From: Galbibacter sp. BG1
GTDB taxonomy: Bacteria; Bacteroidota; Bacteroidia; Flavobacteriales; Flavobacteriaceae
NCBI RefSeq assembly: GCF_013391805.1
Contig: NZ_CP058364.1
Location: 3,644,791 to 3,708,790 of the forward strand
Length of the DNA stretch: 64,000 nt
Direction: 5' to 3'
Below are positions 20,987 to 23,220 of the stretch, in pieces; within the stretch, counting starts at the first letter, position 1; each line of letters starts with the position of its first letter. The position numbers were made by a program, and so were the translations under genes. A model generated the notes under the pieces. The model did not search any database. It was not told the DNA's origin and was given only the letters and a program-made list of their open reading frames with translations.

Positions 20987-22207
20987 TTAACTAACTTTTA
21001 TAGCAATTCTATGGCAGGCGTTGTTAAGATATCCTTTGGGGTTCCAACCGGGTAAAACCATAGGTTGACTTTTACCATTGCTGTCAGTTGCCCGAGCCCA
21101 GACTTCGTAATAACCGGTTTCGGGAAAATTTACGGTGGCCGTAAACTGCTGCCAAGCCAATCGGTTTGCTGGAGCTTTTAATTCGCATTGATGCCAAGTA
21201 CTGCCAAAATCTATAGAATATTCCATTTTGACAACCTCCAAATCCCCCGCCCAAGCATGCCCATTAATTTTTAAAGGTTTACCAAGTTTAAGCATGGCAC
21301 CTGTTTTAGGGGAGGTTATTAAAGATTTTACTGGCATGGATTCTATAATACACATATCTTCGTCTGCCACTTCTTCCCCCGGAGCTACCGGTTTGCAAGG
21401 CACGCGGTACGAAGTGCCCGTCATTTTTGCACCATCGTGAACTTTGTTTCTTACGCTTATGGTTTGCAACCATTTTCCAGATACAGATGCCGGCCATCCT
21501 CCAGCAACCAATCTTAAGGGATAACCATGGGCAATTGGTATCTCTTCATCATTCATTTTAAAAGCTAATAGGGTTTCATCTTCCATAGCCTTATGCATGG
21601 GGCATCCCCTGGAAATTGGTTCCTTGTCTGGACTCCTACTCAAATGAATATCTGCCGCATGGTAGCCAATGTAGACAGCGTTTTTTTTTATGCCTACATC
21701 TTCCAGCACATCTTTTAAACGCACCCCTGTCCATTTAGCGCAATGCACGGCGCCTAAGCCCCATTGGTTTCCTTTAGCAGGCGGATAGAACTCTTTACGG
21801 CCATTTCCACCGCACTCCAGCGTGAGTTGATAACTGTATTGTTTAAAATTCTTTTTTAAATCAGTTAATGTATATGTTTTTGTTTTAGCCGCAGACTCCC
21901 CTTCCACCGTGAGCGTCCAAGTGGTGGCGTCTATAGATTCGGGAAGGAGCCCGTTATTCCTAATAAACATGGCACTGTTGGGCGTAATGGCATCGTTAAG
22001 CAGGTGTGCCTTCGATTCTATATTCCACGGTCGATCGTTTAAAACCTCCATTTCTTCATTTAAATTGAATAATTCAAACGGATTTGGGTCTTGTGCCAGT
22101 AACGGAACGTATCCTTTTGGCATTAAATGTCCATATACGTTGGATACTCCACTGGCCAAGGCTGCCGAAGTAAACAAACTGCTTTCTATAAACTTTCTGC
22201 GCTTCAT
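20987..22207 (-). CDS. molybdopterin-dependent sulfite oxidase-family protein (SorA-like), Tat-exported
   Basis: This 406-residue protein starts with KRRKFIESS and a hydrophobic stretch, a twin-arginine-type signal. The oxidoreductase molybdopterin domain has LTLECGGNGRKEF, in which Cys132 is the expected Mo ligand, plus GAVHCAKWTGVRLKDVL and DIHLSRSPDKEPISRGCP. The C-terminal part (about 285-400) is the Mo-co dimerisation Ig-like domain with LKINGHAWAGD and YYEVWARATDSNG. The family oxidises sulfite to sulfate in the periplasm. The adjacent cytochrome is the likely electron acceptor. A candidate promoter lies just upstream and the phased ACGT array beyond it. Other substrates are possible within this family. 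Confidence 0.87.
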   Translation of the reverse strand: MKRRKFIESSLFTSAALASGVSNVYGHLMPKGYVPLLAQDPNPFELFNLNEEMEVLNDRPWNIESKAHLLNDAITPNSAMFIRNNGLLPESIDATTWTLTVEGESAAKTKTYTLTDLKKNFKQYSYQLTLECGGNGRKEFYPPAKGNQWGLGAVHCAKWTGVRLKDVLEDVGIKKNAVYIGYHAADIHLSRSPDKEPISRGCPMHKAMEDETLLAFKMNDEEIPIAHGYPLRLVAGGWPASVSGKWLQTISVRNKVHDGAKMTGTSYRVPCKPVAPGEEVADEDMCIIESMPVKSLITSPKTGAMLKLGKPLKINGHAWAGDLEVVKMEYSIDFGSTWHQCELKAPANRLAWQQFTATVNFPETGYYEVWARATDSNGKSQPMVLPGWNPKGYLNNACHRIAIKVS

Positions 22208-22308: not shown

Positions 22309-22578
22309 ACGTTCCATGACTATATTTATACGTTCCACCATGGTATTTTCACGTTATTTAATGGTCGCAATACGTTACCATGCCTATCCAATGGTACATT
22401 TTACTGCTTTTTATACGTAGGTAGACGTATCTCACGGGTCATTTAACGTCTCGGTACACGTTCTTAACGTATCCAGATACGTTAGTGTAGGTATAATTAT
22501 AGGTTTCTAACGTGTAGAAATACGTTGGCATACGTATCGGGAACATCATTTAACGTGTCTGGACACATATTGGGACGT
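22309..22578. repeat. array of 15 ACGT sites in helical phase
   Basis: ACGT starts at 22309, 22330, 22351, 22372, 22415, 22425, 22446, 22458, 22467, 22479, 22510, 22522, 22532, 22553 and 22575. Spacings are 21, 21, 21, 43, 10, 21, 12, 9, 12, 31, 12, 10, 21 and 22, that is, multiples of about 10.6 bases. Two segments 107 bases apart (from 22425 and 22532) are alike (ACGTATC... then CATTTAACGT), so a diverged 21-base tandem repeat underlies it. It starts roughly 45 bases upstream of the candidate sorA -33 element. Confidence 0.9.
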
Positions 22579-22634
22579 ATATTTAAGTTTTTTTTGTGAC
22601 TAATTATTTTCTAGTTTTTAAAAACCGCTACGGA

Positions 22635-22660
22635 TCTTGCCCGCGGAAGGCAGGTGCAAG
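22635..22660. repeat. short inverted repeat in the intergenic region
   Basis: CTTGCC and GGCA...GCAAG arms surround CGCGGAA. The GC-rich words contrast with the AT-rich surroundings and look like a dispersed intergenic repeat rather than a terminator, since no gene ends nearby. Confidence 0.45.
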
Positions 22661-22676
22661 AATGATTCTATTCAAA

Positions 22677-22720
22677 GTAAAAAGTACCAAGTACAGGGTA
22701 CAAAATATAAAGTACAGTGC
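22677..22720 (+). repeat. cluster of GTAC words
   Basis: AAGTACC, AAGTACA, GGGTACA and AAGTACA follow one another within about 40 bases, separated by 3-10 bases. It is a short degenerate tandem repeat of unknown role. Confidence 0.5.
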
Positions 22721-22725
22721 AAGTC

Positions 22726-22755
22726 ATTTCGATCCCGAAGTCTCGGGAGAGAAAT
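22726..22755. repeat. ATTTC...GAAAT inverted repeat
   Basis: Outer arms ATTTC and GAAAT enclose TCCCGA and TCGGGA, a stepwise foldback. From memory, similar GATTTCTC...CGAAATGA elements are common between genes in Flavobacteriaceae genomes; this could not be checked here. Confidence 0.5.
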
Positions 22756-22794
22756 CATATGAACTTACTTCTTATTATGATGGATTAAATGCGT

Positions 22795-22873
22795 ACAGTT
22801 GCCAGTAGCAGTAAGCAGTTTTTTGTTGTGAATACTGCCAATTGCGACTGCACACTGAACACTGAAAACTGCC
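22795..22873. repeat. CAGT/ACTG foldback repeat
   Basis: The left half has four CAGT words (22796-22819) and the right half has five ACTG words (22834-22872), with a T-rich centre, so the region can fold back on itself. It precedes the DUF6787-like gene by about 55 bases. Confidence 0.5.
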
Positions 22874-22902
22874 AACCATTTTCTAAGCTTGACAAAATCC
22901 CC

Positions 22903-22926: not shown

Positions 22927-23220
22927 ATGGAAAAATTAAAACAACGCTGGGGAGTTACTTCTAACTTTCAGCTTCTTATAATTTTTATTGTATTTGCCAT
23001 TACCGGTTCTACAGCTGCTAAAATAGCAGGGCCCATAACCGAGTATATTGGCTTGCATCCAGATTCGCTGCACCCGGTTTTATATTGGGTTGTTAGAATA
23101 TTATTAATCTTCCCTATTTACCAAGTATTACTTGTTTTGTTTGGTTGGATATTTGGGCAGTTTGATTTTTTCTGGAATTTTGAAAAGAAAATGCTTAAAA
23201 GGTTTGGGATTAAAATTTAA
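22927..23220 (+). CDS. small two-TM membrane protein, DUF6787-like
   Basis: This 97-residue protein starts at ATG 22927; the frame is open further upstream but that part lies in repeat sequence. It begins MEKLKQRWGVTSNFQLLIIFIVFAITGSTAA, then a second hydrophobic segment VLYWVVRILLIFPIYQVLLVLFGWIFGQF, and ends FFWNFEKKMLKRFGIKI. This plan (KLKxRWG, two membrane helices, FFWxFEKKMLKRFG) is a small conserved Bacteroidota membrane protein of unknown function. It faces the metal-uptake-like locus and lies 46 bases before its first gene, so co-transcription is possible but not shown. Confidence 0.8.
   Translation: MEKLKQRWGVTSNFQLLIIFIVFAITGSTAAKIAGPITEYIGLHPDSLHPVLYWVVRILLIFPIYQVLLVLFGWIFGQFDFFWNFEKKMLKRFGIKI

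Follow-up and report, generated by a model that had tools for sequence, protein, structure and literature searches.

The sopC (parS_F) locus of the F plasmid is described as a set of twelve 43 base pair (bp) repeats, each with a 16 bp inverted repeat and each bound by a dimer of ParB_F (PMC9178275). Other described systems that bear comparison are the REP/BIME elements, dispersed extragenic palindromes of which some adjoin the gene for a small protein, RAYT, and for which PMC2817692 reports repeats specific to the paralogue and coevolving with the protein, and BldC, a small protein reported to form cooperative multimers on repeated DNA sites (PMC5859096). Here we consider an array of ACGT sites in Galbibacter sp. 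BG1 (NZ_CP058364.1), lying in a stretch of 64,000 nucleotides that we will refer to as the window and whose positions serve as coordinates below, together with further arrays in this and other genomes and a family of small proteins, the partner family, whose genes adjoin many of them.

We propose, with a probability of roughly 0.55, that the array is a platform of many sites for one sequence-specific protein, whose dimers would line up on the same face of the DNA. The observations that carry this proposal are the geometry of the array, the occurrence of several intergenic arrays per genome, the dyad-symmetric change of half-sites between genomes, the linkage of gene and array, and a motif specific to the paralogue. 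A protein-binding platform had already been suggested in the first-pass annotation of this DNA, and it is upheld here as the best reading.

The likeness to sopC and its protein SopB (ParB_F) lies in 43 bp tandem repeats carrying 16 bp inverted repeats, a feature also present here. However, the arrays described here have two palindromes per 43 bp rather than one, several occur per chromosome, their half-sites vary between genomes and paralogues, and no ParA or ParB gene stands beside them among the families seen; five distinct partner proteins gave no match to a ParB family in Pfam at E ≤ 1. With REP/BIME and RAYT the arrays share extragenic dispersal, but RAYT is a tyrosine transposase with a histidine-hydrophobic-histidine (HUH) motif, which is found in none of 115 partner family rows (some of them duplicates), and its gene is flanked on both sides by inverted repeats, whereas the arrays here are long, helix-phased and usually confined to the 3′ side of the partner gene. 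BldC differs in being MerR-related and in reading direct repeats, in contrast to dispersed palindromic sites and a partner protein with no convincing match among solved folds. Judged by the sequence features tested, the partner protein belongs to neither the sopC/ParB nor the REP/RAYT group. No published description of such arrays was found in open-licence papers, which agrees with the earlier impression that no element like this one had been described; the array is not unique, however, and belongs to a dispersed family.

A helix-phased array and its counterparts

The window array contains 15 ACGT sites (starting at 22309, 22330, 22351, 22372, 22415, 22425, 22446, 22458, 22467, 22479, 22510, 22522, 22532, 22553 and 22575) where 1.04 are expected from the local base composition, and their phase has a vector strength of 0.953 near 10.64 bp, which none of 20,000 uniform placements equalled as a maximum within 10–11 bp. 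The offsets match exactly those given in the first-pass annotation, which had expected about one site and had placed all of them on the same helix face with a 10.64-base period. ACGT is scarce over the whole window (108 against 137.8 in shuffled sequence), and 15 of the 108 lie inside the array. A diverged 21-base tandem repeat had been put forward as its origin; the tandem repeat is real, although its dominant unit is 43 bp, that is, two units of 21–22 bp. Periodicity at 21/22/42/43 bp reaches z ≥ 4 in only one of 63 one-kilobase (kb) segments of the window, the segment with the array (z 6.7).

Five arrays were found in this genome, namely the window array and those near 387, 1110, 2402 and 3290 kb, along with a three-site stub near 3198 kb; array listings made with a looser pattern, for genomes G000 and G002, are to be read as at least the numbers given. 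The retention of ACGT was compared with a neutral model in which a 43 bp repeat with ACGT in all four slots was mutated to the observed copy-to-copy similarity, in 3,000 runs with each of two ancestors. Neutral decay leaves 5.3 ± 2.1 ACGT (5.6 ± 2.1 with the second ancestor), and no run with either ancestor reached the 15 seen in the window array. For the G005_L182 array too none of 3,000 runs was as high, while 2 and 7 of 3,000 were for the 2402-kb array and 6 and 22 of 3,000 for the 3290-kb array. Selection keeps ACGT in the most diverged arrays, the window array included. The earlier view that the ACGT core was kept while the rest drifted is thus borne out for this array, and neutral mutation of a repeat, the explanation that the same annotation had named as fatal to the binding-platform idea, does not account for the number of ACGT sites in it.

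Arrays of this kind are scattered rather than tied to one place. The sister genomes compared within the genus include Galbibacter sp. EGI 63066, Joostella atrarenae, G. orientalis and G. mesophilus. A search of relatives for the same region, as the first-pass annotation had advised, finds the array there in the window's genome alone, with arrays dispersed elsewhere. At the 1110-kb spot none of six other Galbibacter has a cluster of at least four ACGT, and at the 387-kb spot, by rimO, a six-ACGT cluster is present in G004 alone among these six. The looser ACGT pattern gave 2 matches in G004 against 5 and 8 for controls, so that the arrays of this genome are weak evidence. Pure turnover is contradicted by one array that is common to G. 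mesophilus (L180, 3872–4270) and G. orientalis (L183, 4014–4163), where it is flanked by the same pair of genes, of which one belongs to the DinB family; at least one array therefore predates the split of these species.

Over a wider range, a strict four-ACGT pattern occurs in five of 60 relatives, all Galbibacter, and a five-ACGT pattern run over the genome collection gave 73 stretches, from 32 genomes by our own count. These stretches contain 71 clusters of at least six ACGT, and 63 of the clusters are phased at R ≥ 0.8, with a median period of 10.74; all but one of the 63 phased arrays lie outside open reading frames (ORFs) of at least 90 amino acids (aa). Where both flanks were readable (n = 52), the flanking genes are convergent in 15 cases, tandem in 31 and divergent in 6 (convergent against divergent, p 0.08). 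No Pfam family is found in more than three of the 108 nearest proteins (115 listed), a scan that is blind to the partner gene because its product matches no Pfam model.

Near-perfect 22 bp repeats with ACGT at 10/12 bp were also seen in Chloroflexota and Anaerolineae metagenome-assembled genomes (MAGs; L097, 6955–7119, and L107, 2971–3103). These may be unrelated simple repeats, or convergent, and the partner family was not found in either genome. Both loci, with L078, L143, L144 and L146, were treated as other repeat types and left out of the neighbour and grammar sets.

Site anatomy and dyad symmetry

The site is a 16 bp palindrome, ACGT-N8-ACGT, followed by 5–6 bp, so that the repeat measures 21–22 bp and two units 43 bp, and steps between ACGT within arrays alternate between 12 and 9–10 bp. 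Among 134 distinct N8, 85% begin with a purine and 91% end with a pyrimidine, and the N6 spacers follow the opposite rule, in 84% at each end (155 distinct N6). The bases that flank ACGT vary by genome, being ATC in Galbibacter, GGT in many Flavobacterium and AAA in a Chitinophagales MAG.

Across a hand-made list of 24 genomes these bases change with dyad symmetry. Symmetric change between genomes was 0.65 against 0.34 for positions 2 and 7 of N8 and 0.70 against 0.36 for positions 3 and 6 (0/500 shuffles in both cases), and weaker, at 0.55 against 0.38, for positions 1 and 8. Within genomes such compensation is absent (0.58 against 0.61 expected for 2 and 7, and 0.68 against 0.64 for 3 and 6; 142 distinct N8). 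Since compensation site by site would be needed for hairpins but not for a dimeric protein whose half-site is specific to the genome, this combination favours a dimeric protein over hairpins.

A gene family beside the arrays

A blastp comparison of the ORFs flanking arrays found a recurrent neighbour, a protein of 154–160 aa, in four of six array-bearing Galbibacter genomes examined, and relatives have one array immediately 3′ of its gene. The gene also adjoins arrays in Flavobacterium aquatile, F. noncentrifugens, Flavobacterium GT3R68, a Bacteroidetes MAG and Phocaeicola abscessus. It was not visible to the first-pass annotation because none is detected in the window's genome. Searches of Pfam, NCBIfam, PHROGs, PADLOC and Protein Data Bank (PDB) sequences gave nothing credible for the family (about 155 aa); 2,064 database proteins match it, and the named ones among 120 listed are, bar one, hypothetical or uncharacterised. 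The structure, predicted with confidence, consists entirely of helices, one of them of 55 residues (predicted local distance difference test 90.9, predicted template modelling score 0.74), and the model has no convincing PDB structure match. One family protein gave no match in plasmids or phages, and the family alignment none in viral contigs. A phage or plasmid element was rejected as a candidate, as neither phages nor plasmids gave a match to the array DNA and viral contigs gave none to the array pattern.

The family was surveyed in 25 of the 32 array-bearing genomes, leaving aside four Galbibacter/Joostella genomes already searched and three others. It is present in 15 of these 25 named genomes (two of them, G528 and G529, by weak matches), among them an Acidobacteriota MAG, where misbinning is possible, and in none of 30 array-less relatives (p 2.7e-7). 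It also occurs in 2 of 10 further genomes of g51, probably Flavobacterium, that lack the strict ACGT pattern (15/25 against 2/10, p 0.06), and, in a sample of Flavobacteriaceae with one genome per genus, in 1 of 100, a contaminated assembly. Within Galbibacter it is present in G002, G003, G005 and G006 and was not detected in G000, G001 and G004. The survey gave 37 matches, 30 of them with DNA; L221 and L247 were dropped as truncated.

In 30 of 42 intact gene copies a phased array (21/22/42/43 bp, z ≥ 4) lies downstream, in four others upstream, and in none on both sides, and periodicity is stronger downstream than upstream in 35 of the 42 (p 1.5e-5). Among 113 background segments four reach z ≥ 4, one of them the window array itself. 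Most survey genomes were picked for their ACGT arrays, so the linkage of gene and ACGT array is enriched by choice; arrays with other motifs were not so picked. These other arrays, beside other paralogues, have a similar repeat length of about 21 bp and are built on ACCTAAA-NN-TTTAGGT, ACCTAAT, ACCCCGT, AATACAA, AAAATTT and others. Closely spaced inverted 7-mers occur at 0.014–0.021 of positions in ACGT arrays, at no more than 0.012 in other arrays and at 0.003–0.004 in control flanks. Copies of the same motif class (ACGT or other) group together on the protein tree, with 7 changes against about 11.8 when shuffled and 0 to 1 of 500 shuffles as low, a comparison that includes near-copies and long branches and scores L211 as non-ACGT for its irregular array. 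The genes adjoining the 42 copies are unrelated, two groups of relatives excepted.

Arrays are less complete in two Galbibacter in which no partner gene was detected, the window's genome and G004, than in Galbibacter that bear the gene, with a slot occupancy of 0.51 against 0.65 (p 0.010) and a unit identity of 0.51 against 0.64 (p 0.016). These comparisons set 7 arrays (five from the window's genome and the two weak ones of G004) against 18, arrays of one genome not being independent, and use an overlapping opposite-strand ORF in place of the L231 gene. As the G004 arrays are weak evidence, it is chiefly the window's genome that carries the occupancy comparison. Because of this lower completeness relative to the gene-bearing sisters, the window's genome seems to have lost its partner gene, and its array would now be an orphan. 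When the surroundings of this genome's own arrays were searched for gene remnants under relaxed criteria, the best E was 0.003, inside another gene, and nothing convincing came up.

Some single loci may be added. Downstream of a G. mesophilus gene copy (L209) the array mixes ACCTAAA-type and ACGT-type sites, as if the motif were under replacement. Three diverged gene copies from two genomes (L240, L249 and L250) have a common neighbour protein of about 115 aa with 35–41% identity. The copies L237, L238, L245, L246 and L252 form one clade with common neighbour genes and no downstream array at z ≥ 4, and L238, alone among the five, has an AAAATTT array upstream.

Local context and rival readings

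Table 1. Features of the window array and its surroundings (window positions).
Feature	Position	Strand	Remarks
Helix-phased array	22309..22578	no strand	15 ACGT, lattice period about 10.64 bp; some six diverged 43 bp units
Left part of array	22309..22375	no strand	Four ACGT in 21 bp steps; ACGT in alternate slots only
16 bp site ACGT-N8-ACGT	22446..22461	no strand	12 bp ACGT spacing
16 bp site ACGT-N8-ACGT	22467..22482	no strand	Near-perfect palindrome ACGTATC-CA-GATACGT
16 bp site ACGT-N8-ACGT	22510..22525	no strand	ACGT 12 bp apart
ACGT pair, 6 bp spacer	22415..22428	no strand	10 bp spacing
ACGT pair, 6 bp spacer	22522..22535	no strand	10 bp spacing
sorA-like molybdopterin oxidoreductase gene	20987..22207	-	PF00174 E 3e-50, PF03404 E 2.7e-19
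DUF6787 gene	22927..23220	+	PF20584 E 2.3e-32; flanks array on the far side from sorA
Extra DNA between array and DUF6787 gene	22579..22880	no strand	Other repeat-like stretches; outside array

The interval between sorA and the DUF6787 gene (Table 1) measures about 720 bp in the window's genome and about 120–310 bp in six other Galbibacter, none of which has an ACGT cluster there. Besides the array it holds a 14 bp degenerate repeat (22673–22716), a palindromic stretch around CCCGAAGTCTCGGG (about 22727–22757) and a 7 bp repeat, ACTGAAC (22847–22871). The array begins about 100 bp ahead of the sorA start codon, a position that would suit an operator of this gene, and the first-pass annotation had tied it to a sulfite dehydrogenase operon. 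That tie does not hold: sorA is present in all seven Galbibacter genomes and has the array beside it only in the window's genome, and since the other six keep the gene without it, the array is not a sorA element. The remaining arrays of this genome moreover adjoin unrelated genes, and a role as sorA operator is ruled out for practical purposes.

Several results weigh against the platform proposed above. On the side of the sequence patterns, the backward TGCA control is commoner than the ACGT pattern in this genome (67 against 39 per strand), and the ACGT pattern occurs in only 4 of 395 genomes of a phylum sample, two of which (G204 and G251) we read as chance, with backward TGCA controls in more genomes; the evidence therefore lies in clustering and phase and not in pattern counts. 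(A TGCA control of the same spacing has matches in many genomes of a single family, f32, for the most part one per genome.) The off-register pair of N8 positions 1 and 7 departs from its null (0.39 against 0.20), the only one of six off-register pairs to do so. The 387-kb and 1110-kb arrays do not stand clearly above neutral decay (130–219 of 3,000 runs as high), and five of six arrays of relatives stand weakly or not at all above it (140–2,498 of 3,000). Arrays also fold better as RNA than shuffles, with z -3.3 (0/200) and z -3.9 (0/100), as palindromic DNA does by construction. On the side of the partner, the protein has no convincing match to a known DNA-binding fold, and the family is mostly acidic (median isoelectric point 5.7, net charge -3), which does not favour DNA binding, yet is compatible with it. 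The gene was not detected in the window's genome, which bears arrays, nor in G004 with its weak ones; 10 of the 25 array-bearing genomes lack a detected partner gene, and for 8 of the 42 gene copies neither flank holds an array that reaches z ≥ 4.

An unlikely but serious alternative is that gene and array form a mobile element resembling RAYT/REP, whose protein propagates or preserves the repeats that it recognises; the arrays would then have no host function, and the phasing would follow from repeat recognition. Gene copies amid mostly unrelated neighbours, dispersed arrays placed differently between species, a patchy distribution that takes in the Acidobacteriota MAG and a motif specific to the paralogue, as reported for REP/RAYT (PMC2817692), are all in keeping with this; however, the catalytic HUH motif is missing and there is no transposase match, no target duplication or mobile boundary was found when the extra stretch between sorA and the DUF6787 gene was inspected by eye, and one array (L180, L183) holds the same place in two species. 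It is doubtful, more so than a mobile origin, that the reader of the arrays is some other DNA-binding protein of the host, with the linked gene a passenger or only indirectly involved. Such a reader would fit the persistence of arrays and the retention of their ACGT in the window's genome, which has no detected member of the family, as well as the acidity of the partner protein and its lack of a convincing match to a known DNA-binding fold, but the motif changes paralogue by paralogue beside the gene and its class clusters on the protein tree, which is hard to explain without the partner protein. Two named host proteins were tried and rejected as binders: chromosomal ParB is present in all seven Galbibacter, with arrays or without, and the Bacteroidetes LexA boxes described in PMC8565304 (CTAA-N5-TTAG and GGA-N5-TCC) differ from the sites here, ACGT not being given in the main text of that paper.

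We consider it very improbable that the palindromes act as folded single strands, an array of RNA or DNA hairpins that could, for instance, form the ends of transcripts or structured RNA. The palindromic sites and the folding above shuffles would be expected of hairpins, but compensatory change inside genomes is absent, hairpins have no need of strict helical phase, nothing in 22000–23000 matches Rfam at E ≤ 1, and the folding itself is explained by the palindromes. Slighter still is the chance of a neutral tandem repeat, in which slippage gave 21/43 bp repeats that then decayed at random. The units are indeed tandem and the less diverged arrays fit neutral decay, yet the window array keeps nearly three times the ACGT that decay would leave, and the identical spacing is found in unrelated genera and recurs beside one gene family.

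In the platform that we favour, 16 bp near-palindromic sites recurring every two or so helical turns would make each array one dimer-binding platform, and the partner protein, or a factor that it recruits, would be the binder. By analogy with SopB on the 43 bp sopC repeats binding would be cooperative, and the scattered arrays may act as chromosomal anchor or bridging sites. Because the geometry of the arrays is that of sopC, our best guess as to their role is a centromere-like or anchoring fibre. We give about an even chance to the broader proposal that this is an undescribed two-part system, in which each paralogue of a small all-helical family would read its own palindromic half-site, the arrays would be scattered one-face fibres of this centromere-like or anchoring kind, and the specificity would have shifted fast and crossed phyla.

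For the partner family, with its 2,064 matches, these results provide a likely DNA partner, and for the helix-phased repeats a likely reader. If binding is confirmed, the family would offer naturally diversified protein-DNA specificities under one spacing rule, and the arrays would show bacteria assembling repeated nucleoprotein structures at many places on the chromosome in a way that is new.
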